Shown one piece after another: positions 29,620 through 64,000 of a DNA stretch of 64,000 nucleotides. Position numbers and translations under genes: made by a program. The DNA comes from Promicromonospora iranensis (GTDB lineage Bacteria; Actinomycetota; Actinomycetes; Actinomycetales; Cellulomonadaceae), in NCBI RefSeq assembly GCF_028994805.1, contig NZ_JAJQQP010000005.1, forward strand, positions 62,001 through 126,000, given 5' to 3'. Numbering within the stretch: position 1 is the first letter of the stretch; each line of letters starts with the position of its first letter. A model generated the notes under the pieces. The model was given only the letters and a program-made list of their open reading frames with translations, was not told where the DNA came from and did not search any database.

Positions 29620-29673
29620 CGCCTGCCCACCCGGGCGGAGCGGGCAGCGGACCCGGTCGGCTGACCGTCGAGC

Positions 29674-29679
29674 TACGGT
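29674..29679 (+). promoter_or_regulatory. -10 element for leaderless hydrolase gene
   Basis: TACGGT lies 7 bases before the ATG at 29687, with no ribosome-binding site between, fitting the leaderless promoter pattern of the window. Confidence 0.45.
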
Positions 29680-29686
29680 CAGCCGT

Positions 29687-30571
29687 ATGTCTGTTGCACG
29701 GTCTGCTTCGTCTTCGTCTGCTTCGCCGTCCGCCCTGCCCGCGCCCGTCTTCGTCGACGTCGGCGGTGCCCGCGTCGCGACCTACGTGCTGGAGCCGGCT
29801 GGCCGGCCGCCGGTGGGCGACGTCGTGCTGTGCCACGGCACGCCGTGGTCGGCGCGGGTGTGGGAACCGGTCGCGCTGGCGCTGAGCGAGGACCACCGCG
29901 TGTTCCTGTGGGACATGCCCGGGTACGGCGCATCGTCCAAGGACGCCGCGGACCCGGTCGATCTCGTCGCCCAGCGGCGGCGGTTCGCGGCCCTGCTGCG
30001 GCACTGGTCGCTGGACCGGCCTCAGGTGGTGGCGCACGACATCGGGGGAGCGGTGGCGCTCGGCGCGCACCTCCTGGAGGACGCCGACGTCGCGGGCCTG
30101 TTCCTGCTCGACATCGTGGCGCTGGACCCGTGGGGCTCGCCGTTCTTCCGGCTCGTGGCCGAGAACGAGTCGGTCTTCGCGGCGGTGCCCGGCCCGCTGC
30201 ACGCCGCCCTGGTCAAGGAGTACATCGCCGGTGCGGCGAACAACCACCTGCCCACCGCCGCGGTCGAGACGCTCGCGGAGCCCTGGCTCGACGAGGCCGG
30301 GCAGGCCGCGTTCTACCGGCAGATCGCCCAGCTCTCGCCCGCCGACACCGCGCCGATCGTGGCCGGCCTCGGCCAGGTGCGCTGCCCGGTCCGTATCGGC
30401 TGGGCCGTGGACGACCCGTGGATCCCCTTCGAGCAGGCCGCGCGGCTCCGCGCGGCACTTCCGGGTGAGCCCGAGGTGGTGGAGTTCGCGGGTCGCGGGC
30501 ACCTGGTGCCGCTGGAGGACGCCGACGCCGTCGGCCAGGCCGTGCGGGAGTGGCTCGACGCGGGCGCATGA
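29687..30571 (+). CDS. Alpha/beta hydrolase, haloalkane dehalogenase/epoxide hydrolase-like
   Basis: A 294-residue alpha/beta-fold protein. The oxyanion segment LCHGTPWSARVW (about 48-59) is followed by the nucleophile elbow VVAHDIGGAVA, in which the nucleophile is Asp118 rather than Ser. That is the mark of haloalkane dehalogenases, epoxide hydrolases and fluoroacetate dehalogenases. The later acid (AVDDPWIPF) and histidine (GRGHLVPLED) complete the triad. A Ser-rich N-terminal stretch of about 20 residues precedes the fold. Its 3' end adjoins the T-box leader of the next gene. Exact substrate unknown. Confidence 0.85.
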   Translation: MSVARSASSSSASPSALPAPVFVDVGGARVATYVLEPAGRPPVGDVVLCHGTPWSARVWEPVALALSEDHRVFLWDMPGYGASSKDAADPVDLVAQRRRFAALLRHWSLDRPQVVAHDIGGAVALGAHLLEDADVAGLFLLDIVALDPWGSPFFRLVAENESVFAAVPGPLHAALVKEYIAGAANNHLPTAAVETLAEPWLDEAGQAAFYRQIAQLSPADTAPIVAGLGQVRCPVRIGWAVDDPWIPFEQAARLRAALPGEPEVVEFAGRGHLVPLEDADAVGQAVREWLDAGA

Positions 30572-30645
30572 CGGCGTCGGCGTCCTCCGCAACGCCCCCG
30601 TGCTGGTGCGGCGAAAACGTGTGGCGAGGCCGTCGCCGTCGGGCA

Positions 30646-30822
30646 TAGCGTGTGTCGTGGCGAGCGTGAGGCGTGACGACCCTCGGCCCGGGTGACCGGG
30701 CGAGCGCCCTGCCCGCGCGTGCGGCGTACCGACGAGAGGCCGGGGTCTCCCGGCGAAGGAGTGGTGGCACCGCGACCTAGCCCCCGCCCGCTCCTCCAGG
30801 GCCTTCGCTCTCTGGAGGACTG
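30646..30822 (+). promoter_or_regulatory. Translational T-box riboswitch upstream of aspartyl-tRNA synthetase
   Basis: A TAGCGT -10 element (30646-30651) would start RNA near 30658. Within the leader a short hairpin GAGG...CCTC (about 30667-30683) presents a loop with GAC, an Asp codon, as a possible specifier. A hairpin GCCGGG-GTCT-CCCGGC precedes the T-box sequence GTGGTGGCACCGCG (30761-30774). Its TGGC can pair with the 3' end GCCA of an uncharged tRNA whose discriminator base is G, as in tRNA-Asp and tRNA-Asn. Next, CCTCCAG (30793-30799) can pair with CTGGAGG (30812-30818) and hide the ribosome site. Uncharged tRNA would favour pairing of upstream GGAG with CGCTCC and free the site. This is the short-stem translational type known from actinobacterial ileS. 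Confidence 0.82.
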
Positions 30823-32274
30823 ATGAGACCACCTTCGCAAACCCCTGCCACGTCTGTTCGTGCCGCCTCGGGCCCCGCCGCGTCCGCTCACCAGCCGGCT
30901 CGCACGCTGGCGCGCGACCTCGCCGCCGCGCTGCCGGGCTCGACGGTCCGACTACAGGGCTGGGTCCACCGCCGTCGTGAGCTGGCGACGGTGACGTTCC
31001 TCGTGCTGCGGGACCGCACGGGCCTCGCCCAGGTGGTCGTGCGGTCCGGTCCTGGTTCCTGGTCCGGTCCTGGTTCCGCGGCGCCGCAGGTGCCGCCGGA
31101 GGAGACGACCGTCGAGGTGACCGGGACGGTGACCGCGAACCCCCAGGCACCGGGCGGCGTAGAGGTCACGGACCCCGCGATCACAGCGCTCACCGACGCC
31201 GCCGAGACCCCGCCGGTGGAGCTGTGGCGGCCGGCCCTGACGGCCGCGCTGCCCACGCTGCTCGACCATGCGGCGGTCGCCTGGCGGCATCCCGCCCAGA
31301 AAGCGCGGTGGGAGGTCGCGGCGGCGAGCCTGCGCGGCTTCCGCGCCACGCTGGACGCGGCGGGCTTCACGGAGATCTGCACGCCCAAGCTCGTGGGTAC
31401 CGCCACCGAGTCCGGGGCGAACGTGTTCCCCGTCGACTACTTCGGCCGGCCCGCGTACCTGGCGCAGTCGCCGCAGTTCTACAAGCAACAGATGGTCGGC
31501 GTCTTCGAGCGGGTCTACGAGGTGGGTCCGGTCTTCCGCGCCGAACCGCACGACACCGTGCGGCACCTCGCGGAGTACCGCTCGCTCGACGTCGAGCTCG
31601 GCTTCGTGCGGGACCACCGTGACGTGCTGGCGGTGCTCCGTGACGTGCTCGCCGGGATGGCCGACGCCGTGCGCACCGCGGGGGCCGCCGAGCGGCTGGG
31701 CGTCGAGGTGCCCGAGGTCCCGGCCCAGATCCCGGTGCTCCACTTCGCCGACGCCCTGGTGCTCGTCGGCGCGCCGTCGGACGAGCCCGACCTCGCCCCC
31801 GGGCACGAGCGGGCGCTGGGGGAGTGGGCCCTGGCCGAGCACGGGTCGGACTTCGTCGCCGTCGAGGGCTACCCCCTGGCGAAGCGGCCGTTCTACACGC
31901 ACCCCGAGGCTGGCTCGGGTCCGGCGCCGGACGGCGCGCTCGGGGGCGTAGCCGGGGGCGAGCCCGTGGGCAGACCGGCGGGCGGGCCCGGAGGCGCGCG
32001 GTGGAGCAACAGCTTCGACCTGCTGTTCCGCGGTCTCGAGCTCGTCACGGGCGGACAGCGGCTGCACCGGTACGCCGACTACGTCGCGGCGCTCGAGGCG
32101 CGTGGCGAGGACCCGGCGTCGTACGCGACATACCTGGCGGCGTTCCGGCACGGGATGCCGCCGCACGGCGGTTTCGCGATCGGCCTGGAGCGCTGGGTGG
32201 CGCGCCTCGTCGGGGCGGCCAACGTCCGTGAGGTGACGCCGTTCCCGAGAGACCTGCACCGCCTCGTCCCGTAG
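30823..32274 (+). CDS. aspS: Archaeal-type aspartyl-tRNA synthetase (probably non-discriminating)
   Basis: A 483-residue class II synthetase without the GAD insertion of bacterial AspRS, so of archaeal/eukaryal type. An N-terminal anticodon-binding OB fold (LQGWVHRRRELATVTFLVLRDRTGLAQVVV, beginning near residue 44) is followed by the catalytic domain. Motif 2 lies around VYEVGPVFRAEP, and motif 3 is FAIGLERWVARL near the C terminus, ending FPRDLHRLVP. Such enzymes charge tRNA-Asp and often also tRNA-Asn with aspartate, the latter needing GatCAB. Low-complexity insertions (repeated Gly-Pro-Ser near 82-92, Gly-rich near 365-390) look like lineage-specific loops. AsnRS is the main alternative; the FPRD tail favours AspRS. 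The gene is under a T-box leader. Confidence 0.85.
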   Translation: MRPPSQTPATSVRAASGPAASAHQPARTLARDLAAALPGSTVRLQGWVHRRRELATVTFLVLRDRTGLAQVVVRSGPGSWSGPGSAAPQVPPEETTVEVTGTVTANPQAPGGVEVTDPAITALTDAAETPPVELWRPALTAALPTLLDHAAVAWRHPAQKARWEVAAASLRGFRATLDAAGFTEICTPKLVGTATESGANVFPVDYFGRPAYLAQSPQFYKQQMVGVFERVYEVGPVFRAEPHDTVRHLAEYRSLDVELGFVRDHRDVLAVLRDVLAGMADAVRTAGAAERLGVEVPEVPAQIPVLHFADALVLVGAPSDEPDLAPGHERALGEWALAEHGSDFVAVEGYPLAKRPFYTHPEAGSGPAPDGALGGVAGGEPVGRPAGGPGGARWSNSFDLLFRGLELVTGGQRLHRYADYVAALEARGEDPASYATYLAAFRHGMPPHGGFAIGLERWVARLVGAANVREVTPFPRDLHRLVP

Positions 32275-58505: not shown

Positions 58506-58911
58506 GCGGACGAGTCGGTCGGACGGTCGCGTCGGGCACCTTCGGGCGCCCGCCGAGGAACGTCCGGGCTCCACAGGGCAAGGTGGTGGTTAACAGCCAC
58601 CCGGGGTGACCCGCGGGACAGTGCCACAGAAAACAGACCGCCCTCGGTCTCACGGTCGGGGGTAAGGGTGAAACGGTGGTGTAAGAGACCACCAGCGCTG
58701 CCGGTGACGGTAGCGGCTAGGTAAACCCCACCTGGAGCAAGGTCAGACAGACTGTGTTTGAGGGCTGCCCGCCCGATTCTCTTCACGAGAAGCACAGTCG
58801 GGTAGACCGCTCGAGCCCTGCGGCAACGCAGGGCCTAGATGGATGGCCGTCGCCCGCGCGGGGGTAACCCGGCGTGGGAACAGAACCCGGCGTACAGACC
58901 GGCTCGTCCGC
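58506..58911 (+). ncRNA. rnpB: RNase P RNA (type A), catalytic subunit of ribonuclease P
   Basis: About 406 bases with the conserved cores in order: GAGGAACGTCCGGGCTCC near 58555, ACAGAAAACAGACCGCC near 58629, GGTAAGGGTGAAACGGTG near 58661, AGGTAAACCCCACC, then AACAGAACCCGG near 58879. The terminal helix P1 pairs 58506-58520 with 58897-58911 over 15 base pairs with one G-U. The RNA matures the 5' ends of tRNAs. Its last 30 bases are part of a 50-base repeat recurring at 60545-60594, so the present 3' end seems to have been brought by an inserted element. Confidence 0.95.
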
Positions 58912-58931
58912 TTTTAACGCTCTGACCTGCT
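58882..58931 (+). repeat. Left attachment-like repeat (current rnpB 3' end)
   Basis: 50 bases covering the last conserved core of rnpB, the 3' strand of P1 and 20 bases beyond, including CTTTTAACGCTCTGACC. It differs from the distal copy at two positions; one of them (G58902) makes a G-U pair in P1. Confidence 0.85.
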
Positions 58932-58956
58932 CGGCGTGTCAGTAGGTGCTGGCAAG

Positions 58957-59445
58957 ATGCCGGTCATGCCGGTTCCCGACCTGATCCCCATCGCCCACGA
59001 GCCCGACTACCGGACTGCCACGATCGGCCGGTACGACGGCGGGCAGTTCTTCGCGTCCCTCACCTACGCATTCCGCGACGGGTACAACGCTACGTGGGGC
59101 GACTGGCAGGATCACAAGCTTGCCTTCGCCGTGCTGCACCGGTTCGACCACGACGGGCACTATGTCGAGTCCGAAATTCTCACCGGCCGCACCGTCCGCG
59201 AGGAGCAGGACGGTGTCACCCCCGCAGCAGGGCTGGAGGAATGGCTTGCGGGTCGGCTCGACGCGCTTCCAGGGCGCCAGTTCGGCAGCATCGCGATCCG
59301 TCCCTTTCAGACCACGCACGACGGGGTCTTGCTCGGTCTGGTCCTCGAGCGTCACGGCGAGGGCGCGGGCGCTGACGACTGGGCCGAGCTCTATCCGGAT
59401 CAGCTGGGCTTCCATGAGCCCTGGGACGGCCTCTACGACACCTGA
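58957..59445 (+). CDS. Unknown protein, first cargo gene of the rnpB element
   Basis: A 162-residue, probably soluble protein. It begins MPVMPVPDLIPIAHEP and is rich in aromatic residues and Asp/Glu (TWGDWQDHKLAFAVLHRFDHDG, LYPDQLGFHEPWDGLYDT). I do not recognise the family. It starts 25 bases after the left repeat and reads away from it. ATG at 58957 is chosen; an in-frame GTG at 58936 directly at the junction is possible. Its position in the element suggests accessory function. Confidence 0.6.
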   Translation: MPVMPVPDLIPIAHEPDYRTATIGRYDGGQFFASLTYAFRDGYNATWGDWQDHKLAFAVLHRFDHDGHYVESEILTGRTVREEQDGVTPAAGLEEWLAGRLDALPGRQFGSIAIRPFQTTHDGVLLGLVLERHGEGAGADDWAELYPDQLGFHEPWDGLYDT

Positions 59446-59564
59446 GCCTGCCGGGCAGGGACGGGCGGGTACCAGTCAGATTCGGTGTAGTCCGGGTTTG
59501 TGTTGGCGATTGAGACTGGCGGTCGAAAACTTGGCGACAAGGGACTCTGCGCAGACGAGCGTGA

Positions 59565-59891
59565 TCAGGTGTTGATGACGCCGTCGAGGGCGTCGGTGTA
59601 TTCCACCGGCTTTCCGGTCTGGTGTGCGTAGCGGATCTCGCGCCGTGTGGACTCCCCGATGTACCCGCCTGGGTTGACCACCAGGACGCGGTCGGCAAGG
59701 TCGATCTTCGCGAGGTGCAGCGTGCCGAGTGCAGCCTTCTGCTCGTCGGTGATCTGGTCGGTGGCGCGCTCGAACTCAGCGGGTGCGATGACGATCGCCC
59801 CAGCGAGAGTCAAGTCACGATTCACTGTGCGGAACTCCTCAGTGAACCGAGTCGAGCCGCACAGGCACACGATCTCCGGGCGGGCTCCCAT
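59565..59891 (-). CDS. Nucleoside 2-deoxyribosyltransferase-like (SLOG-type) small protein
   Basis: A 108-residue Rossmann-like protein. The N terminus EIVCLCGSTRFTEEFRTVN has the CGSTRF motif seen in nucleoside 2-deoxyribosyltransferase-like and related phage and accessory proteins. ADRVLVVNPGGYIGESTRREIRYAHQTGKPVEY is the conserved second half, in which the Glu of GESTRREI is the likely catalytic or ribose-binding residue. It may bind or cleave nucleotides. Its ATG overlaps the TGA of the upstream 128-residue gene by one base (TGATG), so the two are coupled. Confidence 0.72.
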   Translation of the reverse strand: MGARPEIVCLCGSTRFTEEFRTVNRDLTLAGAIVIAPAEFERATDQITDEQKAALGTLHLAKIDLADRVLVVNPGGYIGESTRREIRYAHQTGKPVEYTDALDGVINT

Positions 59892-60277
59892 CACGGCCGC
59901 AGGAGTGACCCGTCGTCGCTGACCGTGGCGACAGCCACTCCGTGCTTGGCAGCCAGCGCTGTGAAGGTGGCTCGCGCCGTCCGTGCTTGGCTCCAGGAGA
60001 ACGCCCCGTAGACCAGCGAGGTGCCGATGCTGTAGTCCGACATCTGGCTTACGAGCTCGATGTCGTTGTGCCAGGTCTCGTACGCCGGCGCGCCCGGACC
60101 GTTCATCGGCGGGTAGGTCTGGATCAGCTCGTTGTAGAAGGACCGCAGATTCGCCGTCGTCACTTCTGGGTCGTCGTACGAGTGGTCCTCGGACCACTGC
60201 GACTGCTCCTCCCACCACGCAGGGAAGTCGGCATCGGTGACCGCTGCTGGATCGAACGCGAGGATGTCGTAACTCAT
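59891..60277 (-). CDS. Unknown protein coupled to the deoxyribosyltransferase-like gene
   Basis: A 128-residue protein starting MSYDILAFDPAAVTDADFPAWW. Notable blocks are EEQSQWSEDHSYDDP, LIQTYPPMNGPGAP and DYSIGTSLVYGAFSWSQA. Similar proteins of unknown function occur sporadically in many bacteria; I cannot assign a role. TACGGT (60284-60289) lies 6 bases before the ATG, giving a leaderless two-gene transcript with the next gene. Confidence 0.7.
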   Translation of the reverse strand: MSYDILAFDPAAVTDADFPAWWEEQSQWSEDHSYDDPEVTTANLRSFYNELIQTYPPMNGPGAPAYETWHNDIELVSQMSDYSIGTSLVYGAFSWSQARTARATFTALAAKHGVAVATVSDDGSLLRP

Positions 60278-60356
60278 GGGCGCACCGTAGCCGCCTCATT
60301 GGTGCGTTGATCGTCACCCGTCGTTGACGGGCTATTGCCGGGCCTACCCAAGGCTT

Positions 60357-60386
60357 GGGGCGCCTCGTGCGCTGACGAGGCGCCCC
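60357..60386. terminator. Strong hairpin inside the rnpB element
   Basis: GGGGCGCCTCGT and ACGAGGCGCCCC form a perfect 12-bp stem with a 6-base loop. It would insulate the leftward cargo genes from transcription out of the flanking DNA. No U-tract, so terminator function is uncertain. Confidence 0.5.
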
Positions 60387-60544
60387 CAGACTCGGCCGGC
60401 TCGAACGGGCTGCCACCCTCTCCGATCGGACGCGGTCATCCGGGAGCCAGCGCGCCTTGGGCGAGGATCAGGACGAGCCTACTGGTGAGGTTGTGCCCAA
60501 CTAGTTCGTCGGACACCGCGAGACATACCTGCACACACCTCGGG

Positions 60545-60594
60545 AGAACCCGGCGTACAGACCGACTCGTCCGCCTTTAACGCTCTGACCTGCT
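60545..60594 (+). repeat. Right attachment-like repeat (displaced rnpB 3' end)
   Basis: Second copy of the rnpB 3' end, 48 of 50 bases identical. Its P1 strand (GACCGACTCGTCCGC) is an exact Watson-Crick complement of the rnpB 5' strand, better than the copy now attached to rnpB. This copy is therefore probably the original end. Confidence 0.85.
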
Positions 60595-60691
60595 ACGACG
60601 CATCTCGAGCGGCTGGCGATCGTAGCCATCGCGCTCTGACGCTGCGATACACCGGACACGGCCTAGTGGCTGTCGGCCCGAAGTTGCGGCG

Positions 60692-61051
60692 TCAGTCCGG
60701 GCCGTCGGGATGCGCCAGGTCGTAGGCCCGGGAGACCTTCTGGGGAACGACCATGCGCCATGCGTCCACGACCAGCTCGCGAGCCTCGGCCCGGTCGAGT
60801 GCCGCAAGGTCGGCATGGATCCAGTTGAAGCGCATGTCCGACGCCGACGGCAGCTGAAACTTCTGCGTCTCGCTCGCCACCAGCGCCGCCCGCTCCTCCT
60901 TCGGGAACGCGAAGCCCATCACGCGCCCGTCGAACGAGAACGCCACGTATACGATCTGCTTGACGCGAAACTTCAACCTGTCGCGTACGTACACCGTGTA
61001 CGAGCGTTCCAGCTCCGAGCCCAGGGGCCGAACGTCGTCGATCACTGCCAT
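60692..61051 (-). CDS. MmcQ/YjbR-family protein
   Basis: A 119-residue protein of the MmcQ/YjbR group (double-wing fold, often called DNA-binding). The pattern includes FRVKQIVYVAFSFDGRVMGFAFP, SDMRFNWIHADLAALDRAEARELVVDAW and PQKVSRAY. The function of the family is not established. ATG at 61051 is chosen because GAGGAG lies 7 bases upstream. It is the first gene beyond the inserted element and is divergent from the hydrolase-like gene. Confidence 0.82.
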   Translation of the reverse strand: MAVIDDVRPLGSELERSYTVYVRDRLKFRVKQIVYVAFSFDGRVMGFAFPKEERAALVASETQKFQLPSASDMRFNWIHADLAALDRAEARELVVDAWRMVVPQKVSRAYDLAHPDGPD

Positions 61052-61169
61052 GGTCCGCTCCTCGCGCCGCACATCCACAAGGTCGACGACGACCACGGCC
61101 CTGAGTCATCGGTACACGCCGCGCCGCGCATGCCCGATGAGTTCTGCCACGTCCTGCGGTCTCCTAGGC

Positions 61170-62021
61170 ATGGAGACCCTACTTCCGGTCGGCGACGTCG
61201 AGCTGTGCGTCGACACGGCCGGCTTGCCGACTGACATCCCCCTTCTGCTGATCGGCACCACCATCGCCACCTGGGACGACGAGTTCGTGGAGCAGCTCAC
61301 CGGCCGGTTCGTCATCCGCTACGACCTGCGGGACGCCGGTCGATCGACCACCGTCGATCCCGACTCCCCCGGATATGCTCTGCGCGACCTCGTCGCCGAC
61401 GCCGTCGGCGTGCTCGACGGCCTCGGCATCTCTCGTGCGCACATCGTAGGAATGGCGACCGGAGGCTTCATCGCGCAACTCTTGGCCCTGGACCATCCGT
61501 CACGGGTCGCTTCGCTCGTACTGGTGGGCACACGTCCGGTCGCACCGGGGCCGGTCGACGACGACCTGCCTGAGCACTCCCCGGCGATCTTCGCCCACTT
61601 CGGCAGCGCCCAACCGGTTGACTGGACCGACCGCTCGTCGATCCTGGACGGTGCGGTGACCGCGGCTCGCGTGTTCTCCGGCTCGCCGCACTTCGACGCG
61701 GCCGAGGCCCGTGCCCACGCGGCACATGTTCTCGATCGCTCCGGTCCGCACCCGGCGTCGGCGCGCAACAGCCTGCTGAGCACGGTGTTCTCGAAACTGG
61801 ACTGCTCACCACGCTGGCGCGAGCGGCTCCGGGAGATCACCGCACCCACGCTGGTCGTGCACGGCGCGGCCGACCCGTTCTTCCCGGTGGGCAATGCGAA
61901 AGCGCTGGCCGAAGAGATCCCCGGCGCAACCCTGTTGGTCGTCGACGGGGTCGGCGCGGAGCTCCCTAGCCGGGCACACGCAGAGGTGGCCACAGCCGTG
62001 CTAGCGCACACAGCGCCGTAG
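61170..62021 (+). CDS. Alpha/beta-hydrolase-fold protein without catalytic Ser and His
   Basis: A 283-residue alpha/beta-hydrolase homologue. The acid residue is present in VVHGAADPFFPV, but the nucleophile elbow reads IVGMATGGFIAQ, with Ala in place of Ser. The segment that should carry the His reads VVDGVGAELPS, with Ala in place of His. Length, fold blocks and codon use are otherwise normal and the frame is open, so it looks like a conserved pseudoenzyme rather than a decaying gene. It may bind a ligand or protein, or work by other residues. Confidence 0.8.
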   Translation: METLLPVGDVELCVDTAGLPTDIPLLLIGTTIATWDDEFVEQLTGRFVIRYDLRDAGRSTTVDPDSPGYALRDLVADAVGVLDGLGISRAHIVGMATGGFIAQLLALDHPSRVASLVLVGTRPVAPGPVDDDLPEHSPAIFAHFGSAQPVDWTDRSSILDGAVTAARVFSGSPHFDAAEARAHAAHVLDRSGPHPASARNSLLSTVFSKLDCSPRWRERLREITAPTLVVHGAADPFFPVGNAKALAEEIPGATLLVVDGVGAELPSRAHAEVATAVLAHTAP

Positions 62022-62145
62022 GCCGGTGGGCTCTCAGGAGGACAGGGCGCGCCTGTACCCATGGGGTAACCATGAGCGCTGTCTCGCGTCGTCGGGCACC
62101 ATCCGGACCAACGACCCGTGTGCACACCCTGAGCAATGTGAAATG

Positions 62146-62562
62146 TCAACGGAGCAGTTCTACGGCCGGCTTCGTTGTGGTCGGCGCGAGCTGGAGCGTT
62201 GCCCGGGGGACATCTGTGCTGGCCCGGACATCACCACCGGTGCGCACGTGCTCGATGACGTACTGGTTGTCGGGCGTGTGTGACCGCCCGTAGGAGTACC
62301 ACTCCCAGCGGATGCGGCTGGCCTGCCGGATCCGGAACTGCCGATCCGATATGGCCACGCCCTCCGGATCCCACACCAACAGCCGCTCACCTTCGGCGAA
62401 GTCGAACGTCAGGCATCCGGCGTCGTCGCCGTACGCGGCGACGAGAATGTGAATGTTGTCGACCCGTCCGCCGAAGACGTCGCCATAGACCGCAAGTGAT
62501 CCTGACCAGACATCGGGAACCTGTCGTTGAATCTCCGACGCGATCTCAGCAACCGTGGCCAT
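62146..62562 (-). CDS. Unknown 138-residue protein
   Basis: A soluble protein of unknown family. Blocks include VAEIASEIQRQVPDVWSGSL, VYGDVFGGRVDNIHILVAAY and CLTFDFAEGERLLVWDPEGVAI, suggesting a small alpha/beta fold. FRIRQASRIRWEWYSYGR follows. TATGCT (62569-62574) lies 6 bases before the ATG, so it is probably leaderless. It is convergent with the hydrolase-like gene across 124 bases in which nothing else was seen. Confidence 0.7.
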   Translation of the reverse strand: MATVAEIASEIQRQVPDVWSGSLAVYGDVFGGRVDNIHILVAAYGDDAGCLTFDFAEGERLLVWDPEGVAISDRQFRIRQASRIRWEWYSYGRSHTPDNQYVIEHVRTGGDVRASTDVPRATLQLAPTTTKPAVELLR

Positions 62563-62669
62563 GTCGCGAGCATAGGGGGGTCCCAGCAGCGCTTCGCTCA
62601 AGCCGAGAACCCCTCCTCGGTGGATTCTTGCGGATCGAACTGATGCATGCGTCACGTCGAGAGTCGTGC

Positions 62670-63233
62670 TCAGCGCCTCACCTCGTACCTGTTCAGGACC
62701 ACCCCGCCGGGAAACGTCCGCGTCTCCACCAGGTTCAGGTTCACCCAGCTGTCCAGCGCGGTGAAGAACGGCGTGCCGCCACCCACCAGGACCGGGTGGG
62801 TGACGACCTCGTACTCGTCGATCAACCCGGCCCGCATGGCCGCCCCGGCGAGCGTCGCGCCACCGACCCTCATCGGCCCGCCGTCCTCGGCCTTGAGCCG
62901 CGTGATCTCCGAGATCGCGTCGCCGTCGACCAGGCGGGTGTTCCAGTCGACCGTGTCGATCGTCGACGAGAACACCACCTTCGGCGTGTCCCGCCAGTTC
63001 CGCGCGAACTCGATCTGCGCCGGGGTGGCGCCCGGCTGTTGATCGCCGGTCGGCCAGTGGGACCTCATGTTCTTCCACAGCTTGCGCCCGTACAGGAGCA
63101 GCCCGATCGCCCGCTCCTGGTCGAGCCACCACTGGAACAGCTCGTCGCTCGGCACGCCCCAGCCGATGTCGTCGCCGGGAGCGGCGATGTAGCCGTCCAG
63201 GGACAGGTTCATGCCGTAGACCAGTTTCCGCAT
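62670..63233 (-). CDS. RibD-C/dihydrofolate-reductase-like reductase
   Basis: A 187-residue protein of the RibD C-terminal/DHFR fold. MRKLVYGMNLSLDGYIAAPGDDIGW, LLLYGRKLWKNM, KVVFSSTIDTVDWNTRLV and the NADPH-binding MRVGGATLAGAAMRAGLIDEY appear in order. Such stand-alone proteins are NADPH-dependent reductases of unknown substrate, not true DHFR. GAAGG and GGAG lie upstream of the ATG. It is divergent from the PPOX-fold gene. Confidence 0.88.
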   Translation of the reverse strand: MRKLVYGMNLSLDGYIAAPGDDIGWGVPSDELFQWWLDQERAIGLLLYGRKLWKNMRSHWPTGDQQPGATPAQIEFARNWRDTPKVVFSSTIDTVDWNTRLVDGDAISEITRLKAEDGGPMRVGGATLAGAAMRAGLIDEYEVVTHPVLVGGGTPFFTALDSWVNLNLVETRTFPGGVVLNRYEVRR

Positions 63234-63548
63234 GGCTCCATGCCTTCCGTCAGTCGGTCTCCAGCGGTGAGACCGGGATGGCGCGGGAAAGTCATCGGTG
63301 CGCTGCTTCCGTCGATTCCCGGGTAGTTCGCGCGGCGAAGATTCTGATCGACGGGCAACGGAGTTGACCAGACCTACACACTGCACGCGACACGCCGACG
63401 GTGGCGTGCAGTGTGTTGGGGTCACTTCGGCAGCTACCGCGGTGGGGCGGGCGCTTCCGTCATCGAGCATGGTCGGCTGCCGTCGCAGCGGCACGTCCAG
63501 GTGCTGGGCGAGCCACGGCCGTCGACGACGTTCTGGCAGCATGCGAGC
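63234..63548. other. Intergenic region with hairpin
   Basis: A 315-base gap between the divergent reductase and PPOX genes. It contains perfect 13-bp inverted repeats, ACACACTGCACGC (63376-63388) and its complement (63404-63416), around a 15-base loop. This could be an operator or an RNA hairpin. Nothing else was recognised. Confidence 0.6.
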
Positions 63549-64000
63549 ATGAAAATCCACGAGCGGATCGACGGCCGGCTGCGCCAGTTCGTCGAGCGGC
63601 AACCTGTCTTCTTCGTGGCCACGGCGCCGCTCGCCGCCGACGGGCGCGTCAACGTCTCGCCGCGCGGCATTCCCGGTACCTTCTCCGTGCTCGACGACCA
63701 CACGTTCGCGTGGCTCGACGGCACCGGGAGCGGGAGCGAGACGGTGGCGCACCTCCGCGAGAACGGTCGGATCACCGTGATGTTCTGCGCGTTCGACGGT
63801 GCGCCGAACATCGTCCGGTTCCACGGCACCGGACGCGTCGTCACCCGGTACGACGACGAGTATCCGGCTCTCGCCAGCCAGTTCACCGACATTCCCGGTG
63901 CACGCGCCGTCATCGTGGTCGACGTCGAACGCGTCTCCGACAGCTGCGGCTGGAGCGTTCCTCTGATGTCGTACGAGGGTGAGCGGGACCTGATCGGACC
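63549..64000 (+). CDS. Pyridoxamine-phosphate-oxidase-fold protein (truncated by window end)
   Basis: The first 150 residues of a flavin- or cofactor-binding split-barrel protein. FVERQPVFFVATAPLAADGRVNVSP is the typical N-terminal block of the PPOX family, followed by VAHLRENGRITVMFCAF and IVRFHGTGRVV. It probably binds FMN, F420 or heme; the substrate is unknown. The gene runs past base 64000, so the C terminus is not seen. ATG at 63549 directly precedes the first conserved helix. Confidence 0.85.
   Translation, partial: MKIHERIDGRLRQFVERQPVFFVATAPLAADGRVNVSPRGIPGTFSVLDDHTFAWLDGTGSGSETVAHLRENGRITVMFCAFDGAPNIVRFHGTGRVVTRYDDEYPALASQFTDIPGARAVIVVDVERVSDSCGWSVPLMSYEGERDLIG

Follow-up and report, generated by a model that had tools for sequence, protein, structure and literature searches.

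A probable decayed remnant of a tyrosine-integrase element targeting the 3′ end of rnpB in Promicromonospora iranensis

tRNA and tmRNA genes shelter mobile elements because they are conserved and restorable; among integrative elements, the hallmarks of AICEs are a TraB/FtsK-like translocase and Rep, and integron gene cassettes are marked by attC sites and an IntI integrase. The locus described here belongs, as a kind, with integration into tRNA and tmRNA genes. Its closest described counterparts (PMC4383910) carry a fragment of the target RNA gene, restore that gene, leave the displaced fragment at the distal side, and use a tyrosine integrase; they differ in target, which here is the ribozyme gene rnpB, and neither "rnpB" nor "RNase P" occurs in the available parts of that text. 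Cis-mobilizable elements (CIMEs), reviewed together with tandem accretion (PMC5704250), resemble our segment in having lost integration and transfer genes, kept two att cores, and become stacked with other elements, but rnpB is not named as a target in the available parts of that source, and our segment lacks its arm repeats. AICEs (PMC3218068) are likewise actinobacterial and integrative, with tyrosine integrases that mostly use the 3′ ends of tRNA genes, whereas the rnpB element of the relative G003 carries a TrwC relaxase, and "rnpB" and "RNase P" are again absent from the available parts of the text. In the mostly open-access literature searched, the available text of the best matches listed (PMC8776855, PMC5462765, PMC4524478, PMC2705793, PMC2386152, PMC12884075, PMC10763512, PMC10383233, PMC4383910, PMC3218068, PMC5704250, and PMC12424338) does not describe rnpB as an attachment site. 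The TIGER/Islander survey of 1.75 million islands, which like the present work rests on precise mapping of integration sites, there at very large scale, has only tRNA/tmRNA, coding, and intergenic site classes (PMC12424338); rnpB sites are therefore probably hidden as intergenic in databases of this type.

The DNA analyzed here (the window) is a stretch of 64,000 nucleotides from P. iranensis, whose own genome we call G000; other G numbers denote genomes of relatives or viruses, and L numbers denote loci. A class A RNase P RNA gene, rnpB, lies at 58511 to 58910 on the forward strand (Rfam RF00010, 303.4 bits, model positions 1 to 367 of 367), and its 3′ end is the integration target. The final 29 bases of the gene and 21 trailing bases (58882 to 58931) recur in direct orientation at 60545 to 60594 with 48 of 50 bases identical (E 4.6e-16). 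An ungapped scan of both window strands gave best places matching 50, 48, and then 27 of 50 bases, and a search of the whole genome found the repeat in two places only, both in the window, which bears out the recurrence with two mismatches reported in the first-pass annotation. We regard the forward-strand copy at 58882 to 58931, which comprises the AGAACCCGGCGTA stretch, the 3′ strand of helix P1, and the trailer, as the proximal att-like core, and the forward-strand copy at 60545 to 60594 as the distal one, a displaced copy of the rnpB 3′ end.

As the annotation had also said, the repeats bracket three small genes, and each of the three open frames has stop-free relatives at the rnpB locus elsewhere. 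Gene A (58957 to 59445, forward strand, 162 aa) has an 88% identical open frame in G005, and gene B2 (59891 to 60277, reverse strand, 128 aa) is 77 to 95% identical in G001, G004, G005, and G012; neither matched anything in Pfam, NCBIfam, or PADLOC, and no function is assigned to them. Gene B1 (59565 to 59900, reverse strand, 111 aa) matched nothing in NCBIfam or PADLOC and only weakly resembles DUF4406, DUF7768, and Metallophos_2 in Pfam, all below cut-off; at the rnpB locus it is 86 to 91% identical, without stops, in G001, G004, and G012. Relatives of B1 were found in 33 of 220 family genomes, near rnpB in G000, G001, G004, and G012 and away from it in at least G006, G010, and G014, and because of the latter we take B1 to be cargo not tied to rnpB. 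A case of the same genes with no second copy, which would count against an inserted element, is nearly provided by G005, where A and B2 are present, the copy on their left is decayed, and none was found on their right.

Beyond the distal core lies a further module, C (60595 to 62058), which matches G012 offsets 29639 to 31200 at 96% and contains a YjbR-like gene on the reverse strand (60692 to 61096; Pfam, below cut-off) and an alpha/beta hydrolase gene on the forward strand (61170 to 62021; Pfam). In G012, a copy of the rnpB 3′ end lies on each side of this module (29689 and 31193), which comes ahead of module B, so that the order is A-B, copy, C in G000 and C, copy, B in G012. Further along, a module at 62664 to 63302 of the window, whose gene we take from its sequence to be RibD/dihydrofolate reductase-like, is found again in G004 and G010, next to copies of the rnpB 3′ end and at different places in the order.

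Occupied and empty versions of the site can be compared directly within the genus. A cytochrome P450 gene pair forms the next conserved genes after rnpB in G002, G005, G007, G009, G010, and G011, and in G012 an insert of 24.4 kb separates rnpB from the same pair. The distal copy of G012 (+24811) equals the G002/G005 site at 50 of 50 bases and is followed by 97% identity over 4.7 kb, while the copy on rnpB has a trailer that differs from that site; here, as in tRNA and tmRNA genes, the element supplies the end of the gene and the displaced fragment lies distally. Of the 12 congeners, G012 is the one most similar at this locus to the genome of the window (95.5% across 860 columns; tree support 0.99). 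The 860-column tree combines 500 upstream bases with the rnpB body, and its 71 to 73% identities are not usable as divergence, since the upstream DNA of G001 and G003 hardly aligns with that of most congeners. The P450 segment is itself variable: the larger gene is present in 8 of 13 genomes, at rnpB in 7 of these, and in 4 of the 7 (G002, G010, G011, and G012) the segment is followed by a copy that has the common right arm. The pair, which stands next after rnpB or its copy at loci L047, L036, L045, L046, L048, L049, and L034, is perhaps the cargo of an old element that has become common. One P450 gene is fused to an enoyl-CoA hydratase domain.

The G012 insert opens with a tyrosine integrase and contains a TrwC-like relaxase gene, recognized by an N terminus matching the TrwC protein of G003, and a CBASS-like pair (SMODS cyclase and patatin phospholipase) about 15.3 to 17.3 kb downstream of rnpB (L034). 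Fuller elements in other relatives hold a PDC-S19 candidate and a Schlafen/AlbA protein (G003) or a HEPN protein (G001), and this cargo suggests that rnpB islands partly serve as defense islands; genes of relatives were called by a rough GC3 script, so these cargo lists are incomplete. In G006 (L033), a patatin-like frame lies soon after rnpB, with DNA that is 72% similar.

What the repeats say about the history of the rnpB end is less simple than first proposed. Over the 13 P1 positions compared, the distal copy forms 12 Watson-Crick pairs and the proximal copy 11 plus one G-U, as had been noted. The first-pass annotation took this pairing as a sign that the distal copy is the displaced original and predicted an A at the P1 position in single-copy sites, but the copy on rnpB carries the G-U base in all 13 Promicromonospora genomes, the window's included, among them G007 and G009, whose genomes contain a single copy each (four G025 rows, out of register, were dropped from the comparison). 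Perfect P1 pairing is thereby ruled out as proof of which copy is original. Because the whole genus has the G-U, the distal copy more probably acquired its A through later drift, or carries it as an element allele, and pairing does not tell which of the two window copies has the older bases. Support remains for a segment bracketed by att-like sites made from the rnpB 3′ end, and elements of this sort do sit there in relatives and supply a substitute end (G012 against G002/G005, and the virus contigs described below). In genus g8, GTACCGG is found in 14 of 19 genomes, and in G067 the copy on rnpB reads GTATCGG and the distal copy GTACCGG.

A distinctive rnpB 3′ end of at least 50 bases, together with a similar element left arm, is common to G001, G003, and G008. 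Upstream of rnpB, G008 can be aligned to G000, G002, G004, and others, but to G001 and G003 over 45 to 47 bases only; the upstream DNA of G001 and G003 aligns mutually and with that of G007 and G011. Since the end of G008 matches G001 and G003 while its upstream DNA does not, the rnpB 3′ end seems, from these alignments, to travel with the element and not with the flank. When only the rnpB body is compared, the closest genome to G008 is G004, at 96.9% (G001 and G003, 96.1%), with a tree support of only 0.65.

Extra copies of this end are frequent well beyond the window. A 425-base rnpB region searched against 59 genomes (our own and 58 relatives) gave 35 rows beyond each genome's best match; 5 of these were set aside as pieces of the same rnpB (G023, G038, G046, G055, and G057), and 25 of the remaining 30 lie at query positions of at least 370, that is, at the 3′ end, with 5 elsewhere (G013, G027, G037, G043, and G056). 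A 26-base core was matched in 175 of 221 family genomes, and the reversed core, as a control across the same 221, gave no matches. At least two copies of the core occur in 29 of 221 family genomes, spread over 8 of 25 genera (Promicromonospora and seven others), and in 25 of 394 genomes of the class; both figures were counted by eye, include copies on other contigs or strands (for example, in G014 and G186), and refer to candidate att sites. The claim that use of rnpB is unusual holds for the literature searched, where it is not described; in the family, copies of this kind are far from exceptional, and tandem copies are frequent in Promicromonospora. Wherever regions were fetched and oriented, the additional copies lie on the rnpB strand, downstream, and 1.7 to 33.5 kb off; the exceptions are opposite-strand copies in G001 (about 80 kb off) and G003 (about 110 kb) and copies on separate contigs in G002, G014, and G017. 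At G001:C1:1924866-1925544, about 80 kb from rnpB and inverted, an integrase fragment lies by a copy of this end. Other families of the class also have genomes in which a second rnpB 3′ end is accompanied by an integrase or a fragment of one (L135 in G275 and L136 in G333).

A search for an integrase beside the same sequence, as the annotation had proposed, was successful in relatives. With the G003 integrase as the query, 11 of 220 family genomes matched at E ≤ 1e-60, all by an rnpB 3′ end: in 10 genomes a full rnpB lies upstream of the integrase at a distance of about 20 bp to 5.5 kb, and in G230 the integrase lies by a bare rnpB 3′ fragment. The integrases beside rnpB match PF00589 (102 bits in G003 and G001, 67 bits in G012), so that these elements have, as an integrative mobilizable element (IME) does, an integrase of their own, and in G003 a TrwC relaxase (290 bits) is near it. 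Pairs of copies enclose such integrases in G067 (3.6 kb), G063 (16.3 kb), G117 (19.7 kb), and G208 (22.3 kb), the last being Myceligenerans indicum, in which the integrase match ends 135 bp from rnpB and is followed by a relaxase-like frame. Because G116, G136, G173, G191, and G333 hold integrase fragments at most 1 kb after rnpB and a second copy 1.4 to 7 kb off, worn elements resembling that of the window are not rare. Among 16 further regions with extra copies or integrases, 12 contain an integrase or a fragment, and 4 (G157, G170, G383, and G642) have no integrase of the G003 kind; G642, where the script misplaced the rnpB end, says little.

In the window's own genome, the picture is one of loss. 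The rnpB integrases and the TrwC relaxase gave no match in the segment or in the 59-kb stretch fetched (for the latter, at E 0.01), and among the matches listed for integrase remnants in 58851 to 64000 none was better than E 0.26. None of the 14 listed of 17 PF00589 places in G000 is on the window's contig, and a search of the whole genome for an rnpB integrase acting in trans gave 8 matches, all on other contigs, the best by E value being 31% identical over part of its length. The segment has thus kept its attL and attR cores, 48 of 50 bases identical, and the integration and transfer genes searched for (the rnpB integrases and TrwC) are gone from it and from the 59-kb stretch, as in a CIME.

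The flanks of the cores show further loss. In the regions aligned, 14 of 21 extra copies, picked by eye for alignment, have the same bases, including an inverted repeat, on the upstream side of the core. The other 7 have different ends, of which a second type is common to G001_31112, G004_4529, G012_24811, and G025_21486. With up to 3 mismatches allowed, 335 kb of sequence contain 15 instances of a 21-base arm repeat, GGTACACATTGGGTACACATG: 5 lie at +74/75 from the core start (in G001, G003, G006, G008, and G014), 9 lie at −155/−159, and one, in G012, has no listed core nearby. By our own comparison, these fixed-distance repeats resemble the arm sites of lambda-type integrases. The arm repeat is absent from the window on both sides. 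The right end of the window element aligns with the right ends of G001, which belongs to a 28-kb integrase element, and G004, except for one gap at 60492/60493, where the outer right arm with its GTACACAT repeats is missing (129 bases against G001, 126 against G004); the inner part of the conserved right arm remains at 60493 to 60544 on the forward strand, as placed by alignment with G001 and G004 and by the 14-copy alignment. The left end (GTGTCAGTAGG...) recurs only in G005 and G012, and none of the integrase-bearing elements fetched has it, so the source of A-B may be a different type of element from that of the right end. At L042 (G004; copies at +370 and +4529) and at L051 and L052 (G025), other left and right end types were observed at the same core. 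Because end types differ at the same core, more than one integrase specificity for rnpB appears to exist.

We therefore read 58882 to 60594 as a decayed, immobile, CIME-like remnant of an rnpB-targeting tyrosine-integrase element, and place the probability of this reading at about 0.88. In the working cycle, as relatives suggest it, a circular element would carry an attP with a core that duplicates the 3′ end of RNase P RNA (the unpaired stretch, the P1 3′ strand, and the trailer) and with arm repeats on either side of this core. The integrase would recombine this core with the identical core in rnpB, which would stay complete at its 3′ end, now partly supplied by the element, with the displaced end left at the far side, and successive insertions would accumulate downstream of rnpB. 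The window copy would then have lost the integrase, the relaxase, the left arm, and 129 bp of the right arm while keeping the three cargo genes and both cores. Because both arm repeats are missing, we infer that the segment should no longer be able to excise by the integrase route, and for the same reason its mobilization in cis is doubtful.

The first-pass annotation had left open whether the element is a satellite or a remnant, and the missing matches to the integrases and TrwC and the loss of both arm repeats favor the latter. A non-autonomous satellite, made up of A-B and its two cores and still mobile in trans, would account for the nearly intact cores and for the different module orders of G000 and its near relative G012, which are what excision followed by re-entry would produce; the same orders could, however, arise by gain and loss of modules, and with the arm repeats absent, 129 bp of the right arm missing, and an own genome in which the best candidate integrase is as distant as 31% identity and on other contigs, we consider this unlikely. 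Plausible, though less likely than not, is a variant of the remnant reading in which homologous recombination or deletion between two tandem elements produced a hybrid with a lost middle: the left end is common to G005 and G012, the right end to G001 and G004, and tandem copies are frequent in the genus, but no genome fetched has both parents in tandem. Duplication of the rnpB 3′ end by slippage or terminator duplication, with no integrase involved, has a precedent in E. coli, where 113-bp repeats downstream of rnpB contain extra copies of the rnpB 3′ end with no mobile genes. Those are short tandem repeats with no known integrase, whereas here the distance of the additional copies downstream of rnpB reaches 33.5 kb, an arm is shared by 14 of 21 of them, integrases lie between some of them, and virus contigs contain the core without the gene. 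Together with the occupied and empty sites of the G012 comparison, this makes local duplication extremely improbable.

The decayed remnant in the window thus sits at a target that viruses appear to use as well. The core was found in 23 stretches of 22 virus records, and 21 of these stretches contain only the last 30 to 37 bases of rnpB; L066 holds the whole gene and L082 a part cut by the contig end. Of the 21, L072 and L083 include fewer than 50 bases upstream, so that more of rnpB is possible there, and the other 19 include at least 130. In 18 of the 22 records, the strand opposite the core encodes an integrase domain no more than 350 bp away, which in three of these records (G247, G249, and G253) scores below the family cut-off. 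The nearest integrase is further off in G252 and G256, G250 and G257 have none, and the core is near a contig end in G250, G252, and G257. Ten virus integrases that were aligned are 30 to 33% identical to the G003 integrase and have the same N terminus. Phage-type integrases matched in 32 of 394 class genomes, but none of the 30 loci fetched has RNase P RNA within 1.5 kb; the phage-type family as a whole is therefore not rnpB specific. Most virus contigs have a core that is also common, in exactly this form, in genome group g73, and that lies within rnpB in G383, the one genome looked at; g73 is probably Streptomyces-like, which hints at the hosts of these contigs. A DNA search of named phages gave two weak matches, both human fecal records (MT835553.1 and MT836823.1) in which some 30 bases match the rnpB 3′ end and may represent att sites used in gut actinobacteria, and a plasmid search gave four weak matches.

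Taken more widely, the rnpB 3′ end is quite probably a widely used integration hotspot of actinomycetes, where several integrase types, mobilizable elements with defense cargo, and temperate phages of Streptomyces-like hosts would converge on one strand of P1, each insertion rewriting it, with RNase P RNA 3′ ends moving horizontally. Since rnpB is, as far as is known, single-copy, conserved, and essential, phages and mobilizable elements that insert there extend the range of RNA genes that serve as targets by a further kind. The swap of one strand of helix P1 at each insertion provides a clear molecular test, and rnpB-specific integrases and their att sites are possible integration tools in actinomycetes. 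The region downstream of rnpB is a place to look for defense genes, CBASS and others having been seen there, and rnpB 3′ ends may mislead species phylogeny.
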